Source: an uncultured Bacteroidota bacterium
GTDB taxonomy: Bacteria; Bacteroidota; Bacteroidia; Bacteroidales; FEN-979
Reading direction: 5' to 3'
DNA length: 34,324 nucleotides
NCBI GenBank assembly: GCA_937900965.1
Contig: CALCGJ010000252.1
Coordinates: forward strand, 1 to 34,324
Below the pieces are notes generated by a model. The model was not told where the DNA came from. It saw only the letters and a list, made by a program, of their open reading frames with translations, and searched no databases. The translations under genes were made by a program, and so were the position numbers. Shown one piece after another: positions 1,420 through 34,324 of the stretch (within the stretch, counting starts at the first letter, position 1; the number at the start of each line of letters is the position of its first letter).

Positions 1420-1504
1420 GCAATTAATGGCAATCAATGCGCAATCCATGTGCAATCAATGCGCAATCCATATGCAATCAATGCGCAATCAATGGCAATT
1501 ATTG
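1420..1504. repeat. Tandem array of 10-11 bp units
   Basis: Eight consecutive units fill the entire gap between the stop codon at 1505 and the start codon at 1418. They alternate between GCAATCAATGC and GCAATCCATGT or close variants, with shorter 10-bp units at both ends. The period is close to one helical turn. The array forms the 5' leader of the FadL-like gene if that gene is transcribed from upstream. Confidence 0.9.
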
Positions 1505-2813: not shown

Positions 2814-2820
2814 GTTTTGA

Positions 2821-2862
2821 GATATAAGATGTAAGTTATAAGATATATGTTATACGTTTTTG
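2821..2862. repeat. Heptamer (7-bp) tandem array, AT-rich
   Basis: Six consecutive 7-bp units starting with G, mostly of the form GATATAA, GATGTAA, GTTATAA, GATATAT, GTTATAC, then a degenerate GTTTTTG. The array occupies most of the 55-bp gap between two co-directional envelope genes. Confidence 0.7.
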
Positions 2863-14534: not shown

Positions 14535-14570
14535 ATTTCGCTATTTCGCTACCTCGCTATTTCGCTATTT
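14535..14570. repeat. Octamer tandem array
   Basis: Four and a half 8-bp units of ATTTCGCT (third unit ACCTCGCT) in the gap upstream of the Rieske gene, just before its promoter box. Apart from this and the toxin-antitoxin relic, the 359-bp gap 14240-14598 shows nothing else. Confidence 0.85.
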
Positions 14571-15067: not shown

Positions 15068-16417
15068 ATGGCGATCCAGGAGCAATCCACCGGGAAAAAA
15101 AGTGTCGGAGAACGCCTGCGTAAAGTCTCGCAGAATTTCTTTCTGCATATTCATGCCCCAAAAATCTCTGCAGATACCCTGGCCCCTTCAACCACGATGG
15201 GCCTGGGTGTTATACTTGTCTCACTCTTTGCTGTTCAACTCGCCTCGGGGATGCTGGTGATGATTCACTATACCCCTTCCGTTGATGCAGCCTATTTCTC
15301 AGTGAAAGAGATTATCTTTTATGTGCCAGGGGGAAGGGTGTTCCGAAACGTCCACCGCTGGTCGGCGCATGCCATGGTATTCGTCACGTTTCTGCACCTG
15401 TTCAGAACCTTCTACAAAGGAGCTTATTACGGATCGCGGAGAAGCAACTGGGTGATTGGTGTAATCATGCTGATAGTTGTGATGATGATGAGTTTCAGCG
15501 GATATCTGCTTCCCTGGGATCAACTGGCATTTTGGGCGGTGACAATAGGGTCCAACATCGCCGCATCGTTCCGTGAGTTCACAGACCTGCTGGGGGTTAC
15601 CGATTATGTTGATCCCGGAGGCTTTTTCCGAAAAGTCCTTCTAGGTGGTGAGGAGGTAGGGCAAGCCACGCTCACCCGCTTCTTCACCCTCCATGTGATC
15701 ATTCTGCCAGTAACCCTGCTCGTGTTGATCGGTTACCACTTCTGGCGAATCCGGAAGGATGGCGGATTGTCCTATCCCCTCACTGCTTCCGACAAATCGA
15801 CAGAAGAGATCCCTGCATGGCCAACAGCTCTCTGGGCCGAAGTCTCCATCTTCCTGGGTATTGTTGCACTTGTACTGATTTTTGGTCTGCTGGTCGACGC
15901 TCCTTTAAAGATCCTTGCCAATCCCAATCTCCCCGAGAATCCGGCCAAGTCGCCCTGGTACCTGCTTGGGATACAGGAAATTGTCTCCTACTCCGCGTTT
16001 ATGGGAGGATTTGTCATCCCTCTTCTTTTCTTATCCTTTCTCTTCTATATCCCCTGGTTTGATCCAAGCGGTGACACCCATCAGGGGAGATGGTTCAGCG
16101 GGAAGAAAGGATTGAAGATAACCTGGCTTTCTTTGCTTGTGGGAAGTGGCTTCACCATATTACTTGTCGCGCTATCCCTTTTCATCAGGATTCCCGGCCA
16201 CCAGGGCTCCTCTCTGACCATCATCCTTACCATGATCCTGAATCCGGGAACCCTTTCGGTAATCATCTATTTTATATGGGCACTCCTGGTCTGGCGATCT
16301 ACCTCCTCCCGGCGACTGACAGTAATGGCTCTCTTTACCGCATTCATGACCGGATGGACCATCTTCATGATTATCGGGATCTGGTTCCGGGGTGAAAACT
16401 GGCAATTTTTCGTATGA
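15068..16417 (+). CDS. Cytochrome b subunit (b6-type) of a bc complex
   Basis: A protein of 449 residues, with N- and C-terminal cytochrome b halves in one chain and about nine membrane segments. Heme ligands are His96 and His110 in helix B (within VHRWSAHAMVFVTFLHLF) and His209 and His224 in helix D. The latter pair is 15 apart as in cytochrome b6, not 14 as in mitochondrial cytochrome b. SFSGYLLPWDQLAFWAVTIG is the conserved stretch after helix C. The C-terminal half has NPAKSPWYLLGIQEI, where SPWY replaces the PEWY of the outer quinol site, a variant known in complexes from anaerobes. The protein oxidises quinol, presumably menaquinol. Its stop overlaps the start of the cytochrome c gene. 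Confidence 0.93.
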   Translation: MAIQEQSTGKKSVGERLRKVSQNFFLHIHAPKISADTLAPSTTMGLGVILVSLFAVQLASGMLVMIHYTPSVDAAYFSVKEIIFYVPGGRVFRNVHRWSAHAMVFVTFLHLFRTFYKGAYYGSRRSNWVIGVIMLIVVMMMSFSGYLLPWDQLAFWAVTIGSNIAASFREFTDLLGVTDYVDPGGFFRKVLLGGEEVGQATLTRFFTLHVIILPVTLLVLIGYHFWRIRKDGGLSYPLTASDKSTEEIPAWPTALWAEVSIFLGIVALVLIFGLLVDAPLKILANPNLPENPAKSPWYLLGIQEIVSYSAFMGGFVIPLLFLSFLFYIPWFDPSGDTHQGRWFSGKKGLKITWLSLLVGSGFTILLVALSLFIRIPGHQGSSLTIILTMILNPGTLSVIIYFIWALLVWRSTSSRRLTVMALFTAFMTGWTIFMIIGIWFRGENWQFFV

Positions 16418-18567
16418 AAAACGAGAATCGCTACCGGTTTTACTTCTCCCAAACAGCCAAGTTTTCGGCACTGTTGATCATCTTTGTTCTCGTGGTTGGG
16501 TGGGTCAGCGAAGGACTCTTCCCATCCTGGAGAATACTGCAGCGGGAGTACCGCCGGACGCTCCGTAAAGAGTTTAAAGATCCCGCTGAACGAAGCACAC
16601 TGATCCCTGAACCCGGGGTTTACCAGGTTGTACTACCCGAACTGAAACGGACAGACCGCTGCGTAACATGCCACCTTGCCATTGAAGGTTCGGTACTCGA
16701 TTCACTGAACCAGCCCTTTACGCCTCATCCGGGAGAATACCTGGAGCATCATCCGGTGAAACGGTTCGGATGTACCATCTGCCATGGCGGCCAGGGACAG
16801 GCGCTCGACAAACGGAATGCCTTTGCCCAAAATCCGAGTAACGACTGGGATCAACCAGTGCTTGAACCACCCTTTATCGAATCTTCCTGTGGAAAATGCC
16901 ATCTATCCCTTTTTTCCGCTGACTCAATTCTGGAGGGAAGTACCGTTCTGGCTCTCGGGCGCACCATTTTCCTCCGTGAGGGATGTCTCGGTTGTCACAA
17001 AGCGAGAGGGGTTGGCGGAATGCTTGGTCCCGATCTGACCGCCCAGGGCGATAAATCAAAGCATGAATACAACTTCCGTAACATCAAGGGAAGCCAGACA
17101 ATCTCCAACTGGCTTGAGCAGCATTTTGTGGATCCGGAGATGGTTTCACCCGGTTCCAGGATGCTGCAATACGACCTTCCCAAAAGCGACCTGGAGGCGC
17201 TGGCTACCTGTGTAATGGGGCTCTCCAATCCCGACCTGCCCTATACATACATAGGATTAAATGTGCTCAAAGAGCTGAAAGGGGTACGTCCCGAACTTGC
17301 AGGAGTTTCACTTTATGAGATGACCTGCTCTGCCTGCCACGGAGCCACGGGAGAGGGAAAGGCATATACCGAGTTTAAATCGGGTGTTCCGGCGATTGGG
17401 AAACCCGGATTCCTGGCTATTGCATCTCAGGAATACATTGACTTTATCCTGAAGTATGGCCGTACCAATCAGCTTATGACCTCCTGGTCACCTGGCTTCT
17501 CAGGACTTTTGGCAAATGAAGTCTCCGGAATCAACAGCTTTGTTCGCTCCCGTCGGGTTACCAATTCGACCTGGAGTAAGACGGCAACACTCGTCAGATC
17601 AGGGAATGGGTCAGGAACAGAGGGAGAAATGATTTATCGCAGCCATTGCCAGACCTGTCATGGGGCCGATGCAAAAGGGGACCTGGCTATAGGATTCAAC
17701 AACCCGGATTTCTTCCGTGCAGCCTCATTGGAATATGTGTATTATACACTATTCCGGGGACGTATGAACACTGCGATGCCTTCGTGGTCGATATTCAGCG
17801 ATGAGGAGATGGCTGACTTGCTGGAATACATCAGTTCATTACCCCTAAATCCCCTGAAGGGGACTTACTCCGCTTCGCGGTTACCCCTAAATCCTCGTTT
17901 GCTTCTCCCGAGTACTCGGGATCGCAAGGGGACTTACTCCCCCTTTAGGGGGCCGGGGGGTGAGTCAGGATCCGGCATCCGGCATCCGGCATCTGGGAGT
18001 GAGCGCTTCCATTACCTCTGTTCCCGCTGCCACGGGGAGCATGGCGAAGGAGCTACCGGTCCGGCGATATTGAACCGGGATTTTCTGTTGACGGCGGATG
18101 ATAAATTCCTATATCAAACCATCTCCTCGGGCAGATCGCATACTCCAATGCACGGATGGACAAGACCCGGAAGCCAGGAGGGTGGATTACAACCAGGTGA
18201 GATATACGATATTATCGGCTTTATGCGCTCATGCAGCGACACCGTCTGGGAATATATTTACCCGGGTCCAACCCTGGGGAGCAAAGAGCTTGGGAAAGAG
18301 ATATTTGGCAATTTGTGTGCCGAATGTCACGGCATCCAGGGAACCGGACTGAAAGCGCCCTCTCTGAATGATCAAGTATTCTTAAATGCAGCTACCAATG
18401 GCTTCCTGCTTGCCACCATCACCCTGGGAAGACCAGGTACAGCCATGCCGGTGTGGGGAGGTGAATCCGAGGATCATCCTAAATTGACTGCGGGACAACG
18501 ACACGACCTGGTAGCTTATTTAAGATCATGGCAATTAGTCCATCTACCCTTTAAAGAAAAGAAGTAA
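16414..18567 (+). CDS. Membrane-anchored octaheme cytochrome c subunit of the bc complex
   Basis: A protein of 717 residues, overlapping the cytochrome b stop by 4 bp (ATGA), so translation is likely coupled. One membrane anchor lies at residues 17-36. Eight CxxCH sites occur at 83, 120, 159, 191, 305, 412, 536 and 635. The first four form an N-terminal multiheme part. The last four belong to separate class I cytochrome c modules, each with a distal 'GR...MP.W'-type Met ligand (about Met355, 455, 579 and 678). It should accept electrons from the Rieske cluster and pass them along the periplasmic heme chain. Residues about 476-530 are low-complexity (NPLKGTYSASRLPLNPRLLL and following), encoded by inserted DNA repeats with the frame kept. 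The fusion of eight hemes in one subunit is unusual. Confidence 0.88.
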   Translation: MKNENRYRFYFSQTAKFSALLIIFVLVVGWVSEGLFPSWRILQREYRRTLRKEFKDPAERSTLIPEPGVYQVVLPELKRTDRCVTCHLAIEGSVLDSLNQPFTPHPGEYLEHHPVKRFGCTICHGGQGQALDKRNAFAQNPSNDWDQPVLEPPFIESSCGKCHLSLFSADSILEGSTVLALGRTIFLREGCLGCHKARGVGGMLGPDLTAQGDKSKHEYNFRNIKGSQTISNWLEQHFVDPEMVSPGSRMLQYDLPKSDLEALATCVMGLSNPDLPYTYIGLNVLKELKGVRPELAGVSLYEMTCSACHGATGEGKAYTEFKSGVPAIGKPGFLAIASQEYIDFILKYGRTNQLMTSWSPGFSGLLANEVSGINSFVRSRRVTNSTWSKTATLVRSGNGSGTEGEMIYRSHCQTCHGADAKGDLAIGFNNPDFFRAASLEYVYYTLFRGRMNTAMPSWSIFSDEEMADLLEYISSLPLNPLKGTYSASRLPLNPRLLLPSTRDRKGTYSPFRGPGGESGSGIRHPASGSERFHYLCSRCHGEHGEGATGPAILNRDFLLTADDKFLYQTISSGRSHTPMHGWTRPGSQEGGLQPGEIYDIIGFMRSCSDTVWEYIYPGPTLGSKELGKEIFGNLCAECHGIQGTGLKAPSLNDQVFLNAATNGFLLATITLGRPGTAMPVWGGESEDHPKLTAGQRHDLVAYLRSWQLVHLPFKEKK
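17839..17992. repeat. Composite repeat insertion inside the cytochrome c gene
   Basis: TTACCCCTAAATCC occurs at 17839-17852 and 17881-17894; AAGGGGACTTACTCC occurs at 17857-17871 and 17926-17940. These mark two copies of one cassette, the second with extra sequence. Palindromes include CCCCTGAAGGGG at 17851-17862, CCCGAGTACTCGGG at 17907-17920, and CCCCC paired with GGGGG at 17939-17952. Three heptamers CCGGCAT follow at 17972-17992. All of it is read through in frame as a linker between cytochrome modules six and seven. Confidence 0.88.
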
Positions 18568-18595
18568 ACTGCCCACTGCCTACTGCCAACTGTCC
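18568..18595. repeat. Heptamer array filling a convergent gap exactly
   Basis: Four 7-bp units (ACTGCCC, ACTGCCT, ACTGCCA, ACTGTCC) occupy all 28 bp between the stop codon of the cytochrome gene and the stop codon of the PEP carboxylase gene. Confidence 0.9.
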
Positions 18596-24825: not shown

Positions 24826-24910
24826 TAATGCATATCTTTTCCGGCACTTTTGACATCGCATACTCTGCCTGGGCGGAAATCGTAAAACTGAATTGGCAAG
24901 ATCTACTTTT

Positions 24911-25972
24911 ATGAAAAAGCTATCCCTATTCCCTTCAATTATTCTATTATCGCTTTTCATCCTCCTCTCCATTGGATGTAAAAAAAATACAACGACCTAC
25001 AATCCCCTACCTCCCCCCGGGGTGGAACTTCCCAATATCCCGGCTGAAATGATGACTCTCTCAGCTATCAGCTATGTTGATGAAGGTCTCCCAACTCATG
25101 TTGTAACAGAGTCTATCAAACATCTGCTGACCGACTCTTCTCTTGCTACCGCAGGAAAATGGCAACTGGCCTGGGGACCCGGGATCTCACCTGGCAACAG
25201 AAACCTGGTATTCGTGGCCAAAAAACCTGAGAAGGAGGGAACTTCCTACGCCATTGCAATCAGGGGTACAAGTGTAAAATCTATCGGGGATATGCTCGAG
25301 GATATCATTGCCTTTTCGCTGGTACAGTTTCCTTATGGGGAGGCAGGTGATTCGGTTGCCAAAGGAATGATGGAAGGATTTACAGCCCTCCTTCTCACGA
25401 AGGATTCGATTAAGGGAACAACCCTTAAAGAGTTTCTGCTTTCTATTTCCAGTACAACTAAAATTCCACTGTATGTCACCGGACACAGCCAGGGAGGTGG
25501 ACTGGCTCCTTTAATGACTTACTGGCTGGTAACCAATGAGCAATTAAAAGATAAGTTTACGATTGAAACTTACGCTTTTGCTGGGCCCGGCATCGTAAAT
25601 AAGAGTTTCAGGGACAATTTCATGAGTGCTCTTCCTTCGGATGCCTCCTTCCATATGCTGGTAAATCCTATCGATGTGATACCCTGGATCTGGACAGATC
25701 TGCCAGGAATCACAGCGAACAACATTCCTGTGCCAGTTCCCCTTATTTACCAGGTTGGGTTGTCAATAGCACAGGGAGCACTGAATATTGCGGGGATAAC
25801 CTACTACAACATCACCGAACCGGATACCATAGGGCGTATTCCTATCACACCTACCGTTCCGGGAATTGATCCCTCCAACGCCCTGCAGTGGTATAACTAC
25901 TGGTGGAAGATGCAGCACAAGCATGACAGCTACCTTGTTATTATGGGTGTGAAGCCTTTGAAACCTATCTAG
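24911..25972 (+). CDS. Class 3 lipase-like lipoprotein (paralogue 1)
   Basis: A protein of 353 residues. I chose the ATG at 24911 rather than a TTG at 24893, because it gives a clean lipoprotein signal (FILLSIGC, Cys23). The alpha/beta hydrolase part has the oxyanion region YAIAIRGTSV and the nucleophile elbow VTGHSQGGGLAPLM (Ser193). Probable Asp255 lies in VNPIDVIPWIW and the histidine near residue 338 in QHKHDSYLVIMG, completing a lipase class 3 (PF01764-like) triad. It would hydrolyse esters, perhaps lipids, at the cell envelope. It is closely similar in layout and motifs to the protein at 28733. The gap 24826-24910 holds nothing recognisable. Confidence 0.82.
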   Translation: MKKLSLFPSIILLSLFILLSIGCKKNTTTYNPLPPPGVELPNIPAEMMTLSAISYVDEGLPTHVVTESIKHLLTDSSLATAGKWQLAWGPGISPGNRNLVFVAKKPEKEGTSYAIAIRGTSVKSIGDMLEDIIAFSLVQFPYGEAGDSVAKGMMEGFTALLLTKDSIKGTTLKEFLLSISSTTKIPLYVTGHSQGGGLAPLMTYWLVTNEQLKDKFTIETYAFAGPGIVNKSFRDNFMSALPSDASFHMLVNPIDVIPWIWTDLPGITANNIPVPVPLIYQVGLSIAQGALNIAGITYYNITEPDTIGRIPITPTVPGIDPSNALQWYNYWWKMQHKHDSYLVIMGVKPLKPI

Positions 25973-26089
25973 ATGCTGGATCCTGGATGCTGGATGCTGG
26001 ATGCTGGATTCTGGTTGCTGGATGCTGGATAACTGGCTAACTGGATTTTGATTCTGTGCCCTGTGCCCTGAGCCCTGTGCTCTTAGCCC
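25973..26089. repeat. Heptamer array between convergent genes
   Basis: Directly after the lipase stop codon come eight 7-bp units of ATGCTGG type (25973-26028), two 8-bp variants with AACTGG, a short spacer, then five units of TGTGCCC, TGAGCCC, TGTGCTC type (26055-26089). The array takes most of the 144-bp gap before the convergent T9SS gene. The second block resembles part of the array at 28234-28282. Confidence 0.9.
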
Positions 26090-28158: not shown

Positions 28159-28282
28159 GCGCGATACGCGATGCGCGATACAGGATACATGATGCCAGAT
28201 GCCGGATGCCGGATAACTTGATGATTGAACCCAGGCTCTGGGCTCTGTGCCCTGAGCCCTGAGCCCTTTGTCCTTTGCCCTG
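28159..28282. repeat. Two-block heptamer array
   Basis: Block one (28159-28214) has eight units: GCGCGAT, ACGCGAT, GCGCGAT, ACAGGAT, ACATGAT, GCCAGAT, GCCGGAT, GCCGGAT. Block two (28234-28282) has seven: GGCTCTG twice, TGCCCTG, AGCCCTG, AGCCCTT, TGTCCTT, TGCCCTG. The array takes up half of the 250-bp gap 28064-28313, between the small membrane protein gene and the promoter box of the T9SS gene. GCCGGAT is the reverse complement of the heptamer inside the cytochrome gene at 17972. Confidence 0.9.
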
Positions 28283-28732: not shown

Positions 28733-29803
28733 ATGAAAAAACCGATAATACTTCATACGATTATGATGTTGTCCATGCTTATCCTCATACTGTCAGGATG
28801 CAAGAAGGATCCGGCAACTGTCACACAAGATCCGCCTTTGGAGCTCCAGGAGCCCAACATACCCGGTATCATGATGACACTATCTGCAATTAGCTATGTG
28901 GCCGAGAAATTAGAACCCAAGATCATCAGGGATTCTATTGACATTCTGCTGAATGACAGATCCTTAGGTACAAGAGGATTATGGCAACGTGCCTGGGGTC
29001 CTGGAATTTCAAGCAACATAGCAAACTCGGTTAACCTGGTTTATGTCGCCAGGCTGAATACCCTGCCAAATCCAACTTATGCAATAGTCATCAGGGGTAC
29101 TAATATGGCCAATAAAATCGACAGCGCCCAGGATGTAGATGTTTTTACCCAAGTCCAATTTAAATACGGTGAAACCGGAGATTTGGTAGCCAGAGGTGCA
29201 ATGAACGGACTAGATACTCTTCTCCTTACAAAAGATTTCGTAACAAAGAAAACCCTTGAAACATTTCTGGACTCTATTAAAAGAACTACGAAAACTACTC
29301 TTTTTATAACCGGACACAGCCAGGGTGGATATCTTGCCCCTCTGATGGCATATTGGGTAATGAAAGACACAAGCTTCAAGGATATGTTTACAGTAAGAAC
29401 TTATACCTTCGCAGCACCGGGAATAGTGAATAAGCAATTCAAGGATAATTTCATGACTACCCTTCAACAGCAAAGCGGATCAATCAAGATGATAGTCAAC
29501 TCACTGGATGTAATCCCCTATTTTTGGACTGATTTACCTGGTATCATAGATAAACACATACCTGTAGCCGTTCCTGCCCACTTTTCAGACATATATACGT
29601 TAGCTGAAATAGTGCTAAAGGGAAATGGAATAACCTATTACAACGTCGCACCGGATTCCGCGATCGGGTCTATTCCCGTCATTCCCCCGCAACAACCTCA
29701 AACCAAAGAAGATTCTATTGCGTATTACAAGAAGTGGGCGGAAGTAGAGCATTACCACAATAACTACCTGTATCTATTAGGGGAGCCACCGTTGCCTTTC
29801 TAA
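28733..29803 (+). CDS. Class 3 lipase-like lipoprotein (paralogue 2)
   Basis: A protein of 356 residues with lipoprotein signal (LILILSGC, Cys23). It shares most landmarks with the 24911 protein: MMTLSAISYV, W.RAWGPGIS, YAIVIRGT, ITGHSQGGYLAPLMAYW with nucleophile Ser196, FAAPGIVNKQFKDNFMTTL, VNSLDVIPYFWTDLPGI with the probable Asp, and HNNYLYLLG with the probable His342. It is therefore a duplicate of that gene, well diverged. It has its own strong promoter. Differences lie in the charged loops around residues 95-115 and the C-terminal proline-rich stretch, which may alter substrate choice. The enzyme should face the periplasm or cell surface as a lipoprotein. Confidence 0.82.
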   Translation: MKKPIILHTIMMLSMLILILSGCKKDPATVTQDPPLELQEPNIPGIMMTLSAISYVAEKLEPKIIRDSIDILLNDRSLGTRGLWQRAWGPGISSNIANSVNLVYVARLNTLPNPTYAIVIRGTNMANKIDSAQDVDVFTQVQFKYGETGDLVARGAMNGLDTLLLTKDFVTKKTLETFLDSIKRTTKTTLFITGHSQGGYLAPLMAYWVMKDTSFKDMFTVRTYTFAAPGIVNKQFKDNFMTTLQQQSGSIKMIVNSLDVIPYFWTDLPGIIDKHIPVAVPAHFSDIYTLAEIVLKGNGITYYNVAPDSAIGSIPVIPPQQPQTKEDSIAYYKKWAEVEHYHNNYLYLLGEPPLPF

Positions 29804-29806
29804 ATA

Positions 29807-29911
29807 AGCCTGCGGCTGATGGAGGCTTCGCCTGATGGAGCCTTCGGCCTGATGGAGGCCTTCGGCCTGATGGAGCCTGCGGCTGATAAATCTTGAACCT
29901 TGAACCTGTTA
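29807..29911. repeat. Hairpin-rich tandem array plus three heptamers between convergent genes
   Basis: Five units of 16-18 bp, each ending CTGAT(GGA), with cores such as GGCCTTCGGCC and CCTGCGG that form short GC stems, span 29807-29887. Three 7-bp units (TCTTGAA, CCTTGAA, CCTGTTA) follow at 29891-29911, abutting the stop codon of the peptidase gene. The array fills nearly the whole 110-bp convergent gap. Confidence 0.88.
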
Positions 29912-29913
29912 AA

Positions 29914-32196
29914 CTACTTGGTTTGAAAATCCCATATCGGCGAAGCGCCTAAAAGGTGTTCTACAAAGTAGTTCCAGCGCCTCTTCACCACGTATTCGGC
30001 ATAGTTGCCTTTGTAGCTGTGGCCCTGGCTGGGAACAATCAGCATATCGAAATCCTTGTCGGCTTTGATCAGGGCTTCAGCCAGTTTAAATGTAGCTGAA
30101 CCGTTGACATTGTTGTCAAGACCGCCGTGTATCAGCAACAGCTTTCCCTTCAGGTTGGGAGCCATAGTGATGTTTGATACCAGGTGATAGGTGGAGTCAA
30201 CCGGCCATCCCATATACATCTCCGGCCACCAGGCCTTCTCCATCCTGAAGTCGTGATCTGCTGAAGTGGATACCGCCACTTTATAGAAATCAGGAAACTG
30301 TAACATGGCATGTGCAGCATCGTAACCACCTGCCGAACGTCCAAAGATCCCTACACGTGTAGTGTCGATCCACAAGTACTGTTCGGCCAGTTGCCGGATG
30401 GCCAGTACATGGTCCAGAAGGTTCATCCCCATATTCTTGTAAGATACATCATGGAAGGACCTGGAGCGTCCGGATGTACCCATTCCGTCAACCATGACCA
30501 CCACAAAACCCAGCTCTGCCAGTGCCTGGTTGTTGATACTCAGTACTCTGGAAAAATACCTGGGAAACATCTGGGTATGCGGACCGGTATATGAATGATC
30601 AATGATCGGATATTTCTCTTCCGGATCAAAATTGGTTGGTTTCCAAAGAGCACCGTAGATCGTGGTTTGCCCATCCCTGCCTATGGCAGTAAATAGCTCC
30701 GGCGGACTCCAGTTCATGGCAACCAGATCAGTAATATCGGCTTTTGAGATCTCCAACAGCAGTTCTCCGGTTTTCGTCTCTCTCAATCTTGTTCGTTCAG
30801 GATATGCTGCCGTTGAATAGGTATCAACGAAATAACGCTTATCCGGTGAGAAAGAGATCCGGTGATGGGCATCTTCCGGGGTAAGTATTATAAGGCCTCC
30901 TCCATCAAGAGATGCACTGTACAGATGCTGATGGTAAGGGTTTCTGCCCTCCTCTTTCCCGGCAGCGGTAAAAAAGAGGGTTTCCGACTCCTGGTCGATG
31001 TACAGCAGGTCGTGAATATAATAGTCACCCTGCACGATTGGCTGAATAGAGTGATCCTCCAAATCCACTGTATAGAGTTGCCTCCAGCCGCTTCGTTCAG
31101 ACGCTACAATCACCTTTCCTGCCTTTTCAGCCAGCCAGTAGGCAAAATTGTCGATGTTCGTTTGACTTGAGTCCGTAAATAGTGGGGTGACAATCCCATC
31201 CGTCAGATCTATCTTCAGCAGGTACTCTTTCTGATATCCCCGCTCTGCGTAATTTGCATAGATCAGATTCGTATCTTCCGACCATCTGAAAGAGACCGGA
31301 TTAATATGAGTAGCTCGGGGCAGATCAGGGATAACCTCTTCTCCTGTTGCTATGTTGAACAGGACCGGGAGCATATAAATCATGGATGTATCTCCGGGCG
31401 ATCCCCTGTAGTAAGAGAGCAATCGTGGCCGATAGAGGGTATCCACACTCCAGTCAAGCAGATACATCTTCTGAGCACTCCTTGTATCACAGATGTATGT
31501 CTGGATCCATCGGGAGTCAGGTGACCATGTTACGTCAAAGCGTTCCTGTCGGTCTCCGCCCTCTCCCTCCATCAGGTCATACCAACCATAATAGCTTGCA
31601 TATTCATAGTTCTTTCGTCCCGCAAAGCTCAATTGCCTGATCACAGATGAATCAACCGACCGTATATAGAGATTAAACGAATCGGTGTATGCGATCCAAT
31701 TGCTGTCGGGTGATACAGCCTCATTTGGTGTGCGTTCCATTTCTTTCACCTCTTGTACAATCTCCAGAATATATGTATCCAGATCCAACTGATACAGTTT
31801 CTCTTTGACCTTGAAGCGGAGAGTATCCATATAAATATATTCAACTGAATTAAACAGGAGAGAATCGGGTCTCACTACTCCGCCCAGCTCTTCGCTAAGC
31901 GTTTTTGCCAGCCGTTCATGATCAAACAGCTCTGTTTTGCCGGGAGGGTTAAACGTTACCTTTCGGAAGGTTTTTCCGTCACGGCCCGTCGACAGATACC
32001 AGAAACCGGTACTGTCGGAAAACCAGTGAGGAGTAATTCCCAGGTTAAACACCTTCTGGTTGTCCAAATTATCCCAAAGGAAGCTAACGGCTCTCTGATA
32101 ATCTTCTTTAGTGATTGTTGATTGAGCCTGAAGACCAGCAGCTGAAGCAAAACCAATGAGAAGGGTATTGATGAGGAAACGGGAGAAATTTTTCAT
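29914..32196 (-). CDS. S9 family prolyl oligopeptidase, DPP IV-like
   Basis: A protein of 760 residues with signal peptide ending at AAGLQAQ. The N-terminal two thirds is a DPP IV-type beta-propeller (SPDSNWIAYT, DVTWSPDSRWIQTYICDTRS, VNPVSFRWSEDTNLIYANYA). The C-terminal alpha/beta hydrolase domain has GIFGRSAGGYDAAHAML with nucleophile Ser621, HGGLDNNV with Asp694 and PSQGHSYKG with His726. The usual S9B motif is G.SYGG, so Ala replaces Tyr after the serine. Such enzymes remove dipeptides or cut small peptides in the periplasm. The start codon is one base after the stop of the PD40/OmpA gene, so the two are co-translated. Confidence 0.9.
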   Translation of the reverse strand: MKNFSRFLINTLLIGFASAAGLQAQSTITKEDYQRAVSFLWDNLDNQKVFNLGITPHWFSDSTGFWYLSTGRDGKTFRKVTFNPPGKTELFDHERLAKTLSEELGGVVRPDSLLFNSVEYIYMDTLRFKVKEKLYQLDLDTYILEIVQEVKEMERTPNEAVSPDSNWIAYTDSFNLYIRSVDSSVIRQLSFAGRKNYEYASYYGWYDLMEGEGGDRQERFDVTWSPDSRWIQTYICDTRSAQKMYLLDWSVDTLYRPRLLSYYRGSPGDTSMIYMLPVLFNIATGEEVIPDLPRATHINPVSFRWSEDTNLIYANYAERGYQKEYLLKIDLTDGIVTPLFTDSSQTNIDNFAYWLAEKAGKVIVASERSGWRQLYTVDLEDHSIQPIVQGDYYIHDLLYIDQESETLFFTAAGKEEGRNPYHQHLYSASLDGGGLIILTPEDAHHRISFSPDKRYFVDTYSTAAYPERTRLRETKTGELLLEISKADITDLVAMNWSPPELFTAIGRDGQTTIYGALWKPTNFDPEEKYPIIDHSYTGPHTQMFPRYFSRVLSINNQALAELGFVVVMVDGMGTSGRSRSFHDVSYKNMGMNLLDHVLAIRQLAEQYLWIDTTRVGIFGRSAGGYDAAHAMLQFPDFYKVAVSTSADHDFRMEKAWWPEMYMGWPVDSTYHLVSNITMAPNLKGKLLLIHGGLDNNVNGSATFKLAEALIKADKDFDMLIVPSQGHSYKGNYAEYVVKRRWNYFVEHLLGASPIWDFQTK

Positions 32197-32197
32197 G

Positions 32198-34195
32198 TCA
32201 CCTGCCTATTATCCTGAACTCCGTCCGTCGGTTATTTGCCCGGCCTTCGTCCGTATTATTGGTATCGATCGGATTGGAGAACCCATACCCGGCATAGGTC
32301 ATCCGATCAGGAGAAATGCCATTGGTTACAAGGTAATCAAAGACTGCTTTTGCCCTGTTTTTGGATAGCTCCAGGTTGTGCTCTTCAGACCCGACAATAT
32401 CGGTATGGCCGCTGATCTCAATCCTTAAAGCTGGATTAGTCTGAAGAAGTTGAAGGAGTTTTTGGAGTTCGATGTAGGATATAGGTTTTAAGTCATATTT
32501 GTCCGTATCAAAAAAGATGTTTCTCAGCACAACCGTCTCTCCTACTTTGATTGGCTGAAGCGGAATATTTTTCAGAAATGGCTTTGCCTGATCCCTGATG
32601 CCTGTGAGGAAAAAATTGTCGGAATAGAAGAGGTAGCCTTCACGCGAAACATTGAGTGCATAGTCCCTGTCGGTGGGCAGGCAAACCAGGAAAGAGCCAT
32701 CGATCGGATCTGAGACCGATTGAACAACAACTTCGTTCCGCTCCAGGTTAGTAAGCTCAAAGTAGGCTTGCAGCCTGTTTCCGCTCTCTTTGTCAAAGAC
32801 AACACCCTTCAGGTAGGTGACAGGGTTTGGTTGCGCTTCATCATACAAAGGAAAGGAATAAATATCCTGCCGTCCTTTTCCTCCGAATTTATCGGAAGAG
32901 ATATAGGCAATATCTCCGGTTGAATTCACGACCAGAGTGATCTCGTCGGCATAGGTATTGATCGGATAGCCAAGATTTACCGGTTCTCCCCAGGATCCGT
33001 CCAAACTCTTTCGGGTGTAGAACAGATCCAATCCTCCCATTCCCTGATGCCCTTTGGATGCAAAATAGAGGGTTTGGTCATCAGGGTGGATAAAAGGATT
33101 CTGCTCAACTCCGGCTGTATTGACCGGGTCGCCCAGATTCACCGGCAGTGACCAGTCACCATTTGGCAACAGTTCTGTCTTCCATATGTCGCTGCTACCT
33201 TTTCCGCCACTTCTTTTACTGGCAAAATAGAGTGTCCTTCCATCAGAAGAGAAAGAGGGCTGAGAATCCCAGGTTGCGGAATTTACAACCGATCCCAGGT
33301 TTCTGGGGATAGACCAACGGTCGCCCATCTTCCACGACCAGTAGATATCGCAGCTTCCATAACCATCGTCGCGCTGGCAGGCGGCAAAAAACAGTAACTG
33401 TCCGTCGGGAGAGATAGAGATCGCTCCTTCATTCCCACGAGTATTGATTGGTGGCCCCAGGTTGAAAGCATGAAACCAGGCAGTATCTGAGGAATTGTAT
33501 GACAGGTAAAAATCCTCCTCAACTGCATCCGGGCCTTTAGCTACAATGGCACTGGTAGGCAGGCGTCGGGTAAAATAGAGGGTTTGCTTGTCGGAAGAGA
33601 TGGCATTGATGTATTCGTCGTGGATCGTATTGATGCTGTCACCCAGGTTTTTGGGATCGAAGGGTACGGGGGATGCCATCATCTCCATACCAAAGTTACA
33701 CTTGAGGATGTTCTCCTCTGTTTGCCATCGCCGGTTTGACGGTCCTTTGTTGTAGGAGATGTATTTTTCGTAATCCTGTTTTGCCTCTGCATACTGCCCA
33801 AGCAGCAGTTTGAGGTTCCCAAGGATTACATAGAGGTTGTAGTCCAGGTCGGGAAGAAGTTGAACCGCCCGGTCGTAATTGATAATCGCTTCCTCAATAT
33901 TCCTTTGTTCAGCAGCCATATCTCCCAGCATTGCGTATGCTTCGGCAAAGCTGGGATCTGCCTCCAGTGCTTTCTCCAGCAAGGCATAAGCTTGTGAATA
34001 TTCCCTCAGATTATAGTGCTCCCTGGCCTGAAGGTAAAATTTCTTAGCCTTTTTGGAAGCGGTTGAGAGAGACGGATGAGATTGACCCTGCAGCTTGTGA
34101 CCGGCGACAAGCGACCAGTGACCTGTTACAGGTGAGTAGTGAACAGTAAATAGTGAGAAGAACAAAATGATGATGATCTTCAAGGAGAGTCTCAT
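32198..34195 (-). CDS. TPR/PD40/OmpA-family envelope protein, PorE-like architecture
   Basis: A protein of 665 residues. After an N-terminal hydrophobic segment come TPRs at about 45-150 (AYALLEKALEADPSFAEAYA), then PD40/WD40-like blades at about 190-430 (SISPDGQLLFFAACQR, SFSSDGRTLYFASKRSGGKG, VVNSTGDIAYISSDKFGGKG), a carboxypeptidase-regulatory-like domain at about 450-535 (KGVVFDKESGNRLQAYFELT), and an OmpA domain from 559 with SGHTDIVGSEEHNLELSKNR (Asp599) and NNRRTEF (Arg656) for peptidoglycan binding. This order matches T9SS component PorE, but many Bacteroidota paralogues share it and no lipobox is visible. Residues 15-35 form a 7-residue repeat encoded by a heptamer DNA array. Confidence 0.85.
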   Translation of the reverse strand: MRLSLKIIIILFFSLFTVHYSPVTGHWSLVAGHKLQGQSHPSLSTASKKAKKFYLQAREHYNLREYSQAYALLEKALEADPSFAEAYAMLGDMAAEQRNIEEAIINYDRAVQLLPDLDYNLYVILGNLKLLLGQYAEAKQDYEKYISYNKGPSNRRWQTEENILKCNFGMEMMASPVPFDPKNLGDSINTIHDEYINAISSDKQTLYFTRRLPTSAIVAKGPDAVEEDFYLSYNSSDTAWFHAFNLGPPINTRGNEGAISISPDGQLLFFAACQRDDGYGSCDIYWSWKMGDRWSIPRNLGSVVNSATWDSQPSFSSDGRTLYFASKRSGGKGSSDIWKTELLPNGDWSLPVNLGDPVNTAGVEQNPFIHPDDQTLYFASKGHQGMGGLDLFYTRKSLDGSWGEPVNLGYPINTYADEITLVVNSTGDIAYISSDKFGGKGRQDIYSFPLYDEAQPNPVTYLKGVVFDKESGNRLQAYFELTNLERNEVVVQSVSDPIDGSFLVCLPTDRDYALNVSREGYLFYSDNFFLTGIRDQAKPFLKNIPLQPIKVGETVVLRNIFFDTDKYDLKPISYIELQKLLQLLQTNPALRIEISGHTDIVGSEEHNLELSKNRAKAVFDYLVTNGISPDRMTYAGYGFSNPIDTNNTDEGRANNRRTEFRIIGR
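34098..34160. repeat. Heptamer array inside the OmpA-family gene
   Basis: Nine 7-bp units in phase: TGACCGG, CGACAAG, CGACCAG, TGACCTG, TTACAGG, TGAGTAG, TGAACAG, TAAATAG, TGAGAAG. The total is 63 bp, exactly 21 codons, so the frame is kept. On the coding strand it yields LFTVHYS, PVTGHWS and LVAGHKL, a 7-residue repeat straddling the end of the signal peptide. Confidence 0.85.
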
Positions 34196-34216
34196 ATCCT
34201 AAATGTAAAATGCAAA

Positions 34217-34324
34217 ATTGCCATAAATTGCCATAAAATCTACTTCCACTCTCATACCACTTCCCCACTTCCCTACTTCCCTACTTCCCTACTTCCCTAC
34301 TTCCCTACTTCCCTACTTCCCTAC
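34217..34324. repeat. Octamer array at the right edge, with a short 10-bp repeat
   Basis: ATTGCCATAA occurs twice in tandem at 34217-34236. From 34259 to the right edge the sequence is a nearly perfect 8-bp tandem of ACTTCCCT, more than eight units, cut off by the window end. It lies upstream of the OmpA-family gene; no TAnnTTTG box is seen for that gene. Confidence 0.9.

Follow-up and report, generated by a model that had tools for sequence, protein, structure and literature searches.

Tandem arrays of short units, most of them 7 or 8 nucleotides (nt) long, are scattered through the stretch of DNA considered here, a single whole contig (C252) of 34,324 nt, hereafter the window, from the genome of an uncultured bacterium of the phylum Bacteroidota (hereafter the host; the assembly comprises 3.79 Mb in 301 contigs, and its proteins have their relatives in Bacteroidota). 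These arrays are abundant elsewhere in the host genome, often begin at a stop codon with their purines on the sense strand, and change from one sister species to the next. The explanation favoured here, to which we would give a little less than an even chance, is that they are tandem copies of 7–8 nt made by ordinary DNA synthesis, tolerated where sequence is free to change, and then perhaps filtered by transcription.

Throughout, genes are our own open reading frame (ORF) calls rather than annotated ones. The unbiased sample of the host genome consists of 40 contigs picked by number (336,950 bp), which together with the window makes 371 kb, 33 kb of it intergenic; relatives belonging to the host family were likewise sampled by contig number, and other stretches were picked because they contain CTGGATG arrays. 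Several comparisons were run on the same data.

Period and abundance of the arrays

The original prediction picked out seven places in the window with tandem units of exactly 7 bp, and at all seven of these the period-7 signal is real and above chance. Counting positions identical to the one 7 nt further on gave 25/35 at 2821–2862, 14/14 at 17972–17992, 17/21 at 18568–18595, 75/110 at 25973–26089, 80/117 at 28159–28282, 10/14 at 29891–29911 and 36/56 at 34098–34160; lags of 5, 6, 8 and 9 were lower than lag 7 in every case, and when the same letters were shuffled 5000 times, 0 to 0.06% of trials gave a value as high as that at lag 7. An independent scan of the window found seven period-7 segments, as against 0.0 in first-order Markov controls; these segments cover five of the places, 29891–29911 and 34098–34160 not being picked up by the scan; Tandem Repeats Finder (TRF) listed 29892–29907 but not 34098–34160. 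Two of the seven places are coding, one (17970–17993) in the linker of a cytochrome c protein and the other (34098–34160) in the N-terminal region of an OmpA/PD40 protein. What does not hold is that the period is strictly 7: there is an 8-bp part at 26025–26046 within 25973–26089, and the window also carries arrays of 8, 10, 11 and 16–17 bp (Table 1).

In the 40-contig sample the numbers of arrays found were 28 for period 7, 22 for period 8, 5 for period 9, 3 for period 10 and 1 each for periods 12 and 3, while simulated sequence yielded at most 0.33 arrays for any period; 50 period-7/8 arrays in 337 kb imply many sites genome-wide. Over the full 371 kb, intergenic arrays of periods 7, 8, 9, 10, 11 and 12 number 23, 20, 2, 4, 1 and 1, and none has a period of 2–6; coding arrays number 11 of period 7, 4 of period 8, 4 of period 9 and 2 of period 3. 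The family relatives sampled by contig number gave 24, 11, 3, 1, 0 and 1 intergenic arrays for periods 7 to 12, again with none of periods 2–6. The array process in the host has, in other words, a lower limit of 7 and covers 7–8, with a tail of longer periods. In the part of the host genome sampled (371 kb of 3.79 Mb), the predicted excess of period 7 stands over periods 6 and 9 but is not clear over period 8. A set of 80 named loci from Bacteroidota, all surrounding one peptidase gene and totalling 1.48 Mb, yielded 9 arrays each of periods 7 and 8, and 6 of period 6.

Abundance is patchy, even among close relatives. In samples of 24 to 337 kb per genome, the density of period-7 and period-8 arrays per 100 kb was 14.8 in the host, 18.3 in G006, 16.0 in G018, 12.5 in G014 and 8.3 in G007, falling to 2.5–5 in G009–G012 and 2.6 in G015 (here and below, G numbers denote individual genomes). 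G015 and G018 belong to the same genus and yet have opposite loads, 2 arrays in 75.8 kb and 16 in 100 kb respectively. An assembly artefact might be suspected from the 301 contigs of the host genome, where 5 of 77 inspected contig ends fall in an array as against 2.9% of internal windows, but since independently assembled sister species carry arrays at the same places such an origin is hardly credible.

Position and strand relative to genes

If each array is given a direction, taken as that of its purine-rich strand, then its 5′ side is the one nearer to a gene in 86 of 110 intergenic period-7/8 arrays (37 unit clusters) and its 3′ side in the other 24. Counted for periods 7–10, this edge rule runs at 30 v 10 in the unbiased host sample, 28 v 9 in the relatives sampled by contig number, 54 v 22 and 48 v 25 in picked stretches, and 11 v 5 in family f41; it was not seen in the 80 named Bacteroidota loci (8 v 8). 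The rule holds strongly at divergent start edges and, within tandem gaps, at the stop edge; it is weaker in convergent gaps, and tandem-gap start edges are about even.

Arrays adjoin stop codons more often than start codons: an array edge falls within −6 to +3 nt of 36 stop codons in the host, as compared with 7 start codons (35 and 4 in relatives). Strand bias is slight or absent in arrays lying more than 20 nt away. With host and family relatives pooled, including stretches picked for CTGGATG, the sense strand of the arrays at stop codons contains more G than C in 59 cases and more C than G in 7, and it is purine-rich by 44:3 before a gene running in the same direction, as against 16:7 between convergent genes (Fisher p 0.011). 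This contrast suggests that transcription acts as a filter, for which Rho (present in 7 of 7 genomes) would be the simplest agent. As a separate observation on the same codons, genes ending at an array are enriched in TAG stops (33 of 86, as compared with 68 of 418 others; host samples), perhaps partly because the unit variant CTAGATG itself contains TAG.

Where two arrays share a gap, they are mostly ordered on a given strand as purine-rich and then pyrimidine-rich (40 pairs, with 5 in the reverse order; 5:0 and 7:2 in the samples drawn by contig number). A model of two-ended break healing, in which both 3′ ends of a break in a small gap grow by copying their own purine-rich repeats and are then joined, much as in fused telomere repeats, would produce this order. 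The pairs are seen in tandem, convergent and divergent gaps alike, and neither the direction of replication nor that of transcription predicts this. However, complementarity between the two arms of a pair does not exceed that with arms elsewhere (p 0.44), own pairs being no better matched than swapped or shuffled ones, which also led us to reject a hairpin formed by the paired arms. Unit drift shows no polarity, Ku was absent from all 25 genomes searched (with B. subtilis as positive control), and the fading of strand bias at distances over some 20 nt from the stop likewise speaks against break healing, which on balance appears rather improbable.

Turnover at individual sites and recurrence of units

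The claims made here as to turnover in gaps rest on individually inspected cases. In 21 gap comparisons an array was present in the host only in 7, in both genomes in 2 and in neither in 12; ORF overlaps were counted as a gap of zero, and two of the 7 host-only gaps depend on weak protein identity (28/47 and 47/39%). Behind the lipase gene at 24893–25972, the window has a gap of 144 nt made up largely of arrays, where G002, with the same neighbouring gene, has one of 15 nt that opens with a single copy of the window's unit. G003, G004 and G005 have a different right-hand neighbour at this point; behind their lipase genes G003 has about three units and G005 other heptamers, while in G004, whose lipase is just 50% identical, there are GATGCTG and CTGTGCC arrays. 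The convergent genes that are separated in the window by the ACTGCCx array (gene ends at 18567/18596) overlap in G002 and G004, leaving no gap at all, and the host has about 50 nt more than they do here (hand count). At the site corresponding to 2820–2858, the gap in G004 measures 38 nt and differs in sequence, containing at most two TTTTAAT units; near 14535, the window and G004 have the octamers ATTTCGCT in common.

Coding arrays vary in a similar way. Within the linker of the cytochrome c protein, ATCCGGC heptamers adjoin a palindromic repeat in the window, CCCGATC-like heptamers take their place in G001, and G005 has a shorter linker; together with the other sites this shows that a unit is replaceable while period and place stay. 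The N-terminal stretch of the OmpA/PD40 protein is of equal length in the host, G001, G002 and G004, with one extra residue in G003, and in G005 the protein is 14 residues shorter, that is by 42 nt, equivalent to six heptads or twice the 21-nt step that keeps the frame (hand counts); a difference of 42 nt in frame speaks against the coding array being a phase-variation switch.

Turnover also bears on whether the arrays are functional elements, such as bidirectional terminators or other signals acting at the level of RNA, in which selection would operate on strand composition rather than on sequence. The strongly ordered composition at stop codons and in pairs is what such elements would show, and Rho is present. 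However, at one site an array may be missing, short or made of another unit in a sister species, arrays occur also within coding linkers, the sample of G015 is array-poor, and no Rfam family reached its gathering score in the window. Taken together, these considerations make a functional role of this kind unlikely.

In arrays with six or more units, the identity of one unit to another declines from 0.881 at a distance of one unit to 0.719 at a distance of eight, where shuffling the order gives 0.828 and 0.782; neighbouring units are thus the most alike, and this, together with the change of unit between species at one site, is what would be expected of a copying process rather than of a conserved protein motif. 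To this extent the interpretation given in the original prediction, namely that a fixed length is copied, is partly supported: the patterns fit copying better than a conserved motif, but the copied length is 7–8 and not 7 alone. Array edges are sharp. Polar growth, in the sense of drift inward from the gene edge, was considered and rejected, as in-register units in the flanks drop to background on either side of the array, and neither side differs consistently from the other. Nor is it claimed that a single heptad register is kept across a change of unit, the rest of the array gaps having at most a faint lag-7 signal (identity outside arrays 0.296 in array gaps v 0.282 in array-free gaps; 0.292 v 0.283 in relatives).

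Contrary to what had been supposed, the units are not free in sequence, because many belong to families that recur at other loci and in other genera. In the unbiased sample, 34 heptamer arrays gave 16 identical-unit pairs across contigs and 24 octamer arrays gave 10 (0 and 0 in a control read backwards), and with one mismatch allowed these figures became 34 v 2 in the control for heptamers and 29 v 6 for octamers. Two tandem copies of CTGGATG with at most one mismatch have 125 overlapping matches in the host genome (control 0); three copies on the same terms occur in 11 of 41 genomes, and when 395 genomes were drawn from the phylum, 6 had three exact copies, the host being included in both cases. 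The exact triplets are found in three genomes of family f41 (33, 36 and 3 matches) and in two others with one match each, and since f41 is placed outside the class of the host, a second class of the phylum also has CTGGATG arrays. The flanks of CTGGATG arrays share little: in the host, 26 of 371 pairs share a 9-mer on the 3′ side (reversed control 4) and 13 on the 5′ side (control 5). That these arrays form part of a longer repeat is not claimed, the commonest shared flank 9-mers being themselves unit-like (GATAACTGG, GATGCCGGA, ATCCTAGAT).

Such reuse might point to sites for a sequence-specific protein or a regulatory RNA, as has been proposed for TAACTGA repeats, the most reused units being those of the AGCATCC class (15 arrays), AGGATCC (12) and AACTGCC (11), counted in stretches partly picked for the first. 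Against this, the host sample contains 50 classes of 7-mer alone, units drift within arrays, and they differ between species at one site; binding sites therefore seem very unlikely.

The arrays of the window are collected in Table 1. Some further observations on them can be made. Similar copies of the 16–17-bp palindromic array occur at several other places in the host genome. Of 41 genomes, G000 and G002, both of the host's genus, contain the 10-bp unit AATTGCCATA as a tandem pair with at most one mismatch (15 and 2 matches). The class 3 lipase genes at 24893–25972 and 28733–29803 are paralogues, 47–48% identical, with arrays behind each. Palindromes resembling repetitive extragenic palindromic (REP) sequences, of the type CCCCTAAATCC...GGGGGA, adjoin heptamer arrays at 17880–17968 of the window, where they fall within the linker encoded by the cytochrome c gene, and at loci L007, L012 and L017; a second palindromic repeat, of the type GTCATTGCGAGG...GAAGC...CGCGGCAA, adjoins arrays at L009, L010, L014 and L105, and a piece similar to it lies in the signal-peptide region of the OmpA/PD40 gene of G003 (L230).

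Table 1 Tandem arrays in the window, with positions and setting.
Array	Position	Strand	Remarks
11-bp array GCAATCAATGC	1430–1494		22-bp higher order
7-bp array, TATAAGT-like	2820–2858	.	Between two minus-strand genes; found by scan, TRF and lag identity
8-bp array ATTTCGCT	14535–14570	.	Between divergent genes; same place in G004
7-bp array ATCCGGC, 3.4 copies	17970–17993	.	Linker of cytochrome c gene 16414–18567
7-bp array ACTGCCx	18568–18595	.	Fills gap of convergent genes
7-bp array GATGCTG	25972–26030	+	Begins at stop codon of lipase gene 24893–25972; sense strand purine-rich
7-bp array CTGTGCC/CTGAGCC	26054–26089	-	Pyrimidine-rich on +; second half of purine-to-pyrimidine pair
7-bp array, CGCGATA drifting to GATGCCG	28160–28214	+	Purine-rich half of pair
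7-bp array, GGCTCTG drifting to CTGAGCC, TGCCCTT	28234–28281	-	Pyrimidine-rich half of pair
16–17-bp palindromic array AGCCTTCGGCCTGATGG	29807–29887		Directly behind stop codon of second lipase gene
Short 7-bp array CTTGAAC	29892–29911	-	Sense (minus) AGGTTCA; 6 nt from stop of gene 29914–32196
Degenerate 7-bp array of 9 units (21 codons, 63 nt)	34098–34160	-	N-terminal coding part of OmpA/PD40 gene 32198–34195
10-bp array AATTGCCATA	34215–34237	.	Unit present at several other places in host genome
8-bp array CTACTTCC	34257–34324	.	Continues past contig end

Origin of the arrays and relation to known repeats

According to the favoured explanation the arrays would be neither a bound motif nor a dedicated element. 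Ordinary DNA synthesis may occasionally repeat the last 7 or 8 nt, by slippage or by a short template switch, and arrays would then arise and grow wherever the sequence is free to change, that is after stop codons, in gaps between genes and in protein linkers, where they may gain and lose units and be replaced by others between species. A copying slip of this kind fits the placing of arrays where insertion is tolerated, the constancy of the short step, the resemblance between neighbouring units, and their turnover. Units shared across loci could reflect either the use of a distant array as template or the greater ease with which certain sequences seed arrays. Transcription would decide which arrays survive: those after a stop codon and before a gene in the same direction are nearly always G- and purine-rich in the RNA, and a C-rich untranslated RNA could load Rho, silence the next gene and so be purged, a constraint that would be relaxed between convergent genes. 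Period, location, strand, turnover and recurrence were observed directly, as was the presence of arrays in genomes that lack reverse transcriptase, Y1 transposase or Ku; slippage itself, the reason for a step of 7–8 and the part played by Rho are what we infer from these patterns.

A number of points weigh against this explanation and should be set beside it. Plain local slippage does not predict that the same unit should occur in 15 arrays of the host (in stretches partly picked), in several genera and in another class, and no gradient of drift is seen at array edges. As to the filter, the contrast between 44:3 and 16:7 was found after many looks, its p value is uncorrected and picked stretches are included in it, while gaps without arrays have no surplus of purines behind the stop codon (153 v 136; 61 v 53), so that any filter acts on arrays only. 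Divergent start edges obey the 5′-edge rule in 25 of 31 cases (four f1 sets), although the leader RNA there would be pyrimidine-rich, and avoidance of Rho does not predict this; the ordered pairs, found as they are in gaps of every orientation, are left unexplained by a filter at stop codons. As divergent gaps do not fit the filter, the two-ended break model stays alive. Finally, enzymes that might write arrays are not required, yet they are not excluded everywhere either, RVT_1 being matched in 13 of 25 genomes (6 matches in the host) and Y1_Tnp in 20 of 25.

These last figures come from a search in which neither Ku, RVT_1, Y1_Tnp nor DinB (present in 22 of 25 genomes) tracked the arrays, some of the assemblies being incomplete, which limits comparisons of gene absence. 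A mobile element or templating enzyme that writes units, such as a REP-associated tyrosine (RAYT) transposase or a reverse transcriptase, would account for units recurring over loci, genera and a second class, and the host does have its RVT_1 matches. But array-bearing G000–G003 have no Y1_Tnp match and array-bearing G002, G004 and G008 no RVT_1 match (nor has G001), with the same proviso as to assemblies, and the flanks of CTGGATG arrays share little apart from unit-like words. Reverse transcriptase, Y1 transposase and Ku are accordingly dispensable for arrays, the RNA-primed process suggested in the original prediction is not needed in so far as it involves reverse transcriptase, and we regard writing by any such enzyme as very improbable.

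Arrays of heptanucleotides, of unknown function, are known in filamentous cyanobacteria as short tandemly repeated repetitive (STRR) sequences. The likeness to these, also proposed originally, holds in kind, but neither GGGNATC, GGGGA(C/T)T nor TAACTGA is the consensus unit of any array in the ten genome samples, the comparison of STRR units covering only the Nostoc GGGNATC/GGGGA(C/T)T units; two GGGGATT units do occur within one mixed array of G013 (L176).

Several published systems are related. The GGGNATC and GGGGA(C/T)T heptamers of Xanthomonas and Nostoc (PMC4692102) are intergenic and genome-wide, occur singly and as inverted pairs, and have their 5′ side nearer to the ORF whatever its orientation, as does the purine-rich strand of the host arrays; those downstream of ORFs mostly lie no more than 50 bp from the stop codon, on the coding strand, and some overlap the stop itself. 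In contrast to the present survey, however, that work followed a single G-rich type of unit in each organism. The same paper cites an idea that the abundance of heptamers is tied to the segment of DNA touching the polymerase active site. G-quadruplexes, as proposed for those GGGNATC repeats, might be considered here too, given that G-rich families exist (AGGTAGGG, GGGCAGT), but only 17 of 180 period-7/8 arrays fit four GGG runs with loops of 1–7 and 163 do not, which makes this a very remote prospect. The TAACTGA direct repeats of Beggiatoaceae, Cyanobacteria and five Bacteroidetes (PMC4679880) are likewise heptamer arrays in gaps; in some of the Bacteroidetes these gaps contain other heptamers too, and a close relative has a shorter one free of repeats, again as seen here, and one set lies directly behind a stop codon; for the most part, though, they lie just upstream of start codons in forward orientation, whereas the host arrays are at stop codons. 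Geobacter metallireducens has a single element of four heptanucleotide units, GGGACCG, at 49 intergenic and intragenic places (PMC2700814), a unit that is the consensus of no array in the present samples. The SPADE survey (PMC6344855) found intergenic heptamer repeats to be abundant across 7006 prokaryotic genomes, with no clear clue as to function according to its authors, and is, in the parts used, a census without comparison of strand, edge or species.

Much of this has thus been published before: the existence and abundance of heptamers between genes, a form of the strand rule, and closeness to stop codons. Added here are the breadth of unit families obeying the strand rule, the 7–8 spectrum together with unit replacement, and the contrast between tandem and convergent gaps, three features not found in the open-licence literature on such repeats among the matches listed.

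A far more general possibility, and admittedly a long shot, is that bacteria share a mode of synthesis that copies itself in fixed lengths of 7–8 nt, lengthening gene ends, copying units between loci and leaving purine-to-pyrimidine pairs as barriers to transcription that are blind to direction; were this true, the strand and edge rules, seen in three phyla if published cases are included, would be its signature. Whatever the mechanism, the rules themselves (a minimum period of 7, a frequent start at the stop codon, sense purines at 44:3 where the next gene has the same direction, ordered pairs and unit replacement between sister species) are simple, can be counted, and are testable in cultured bacteria rich in heptamers, and they separate questions that were formerly mixed, namely how arrays are made, why the step is 7–8, and which arrays survive.
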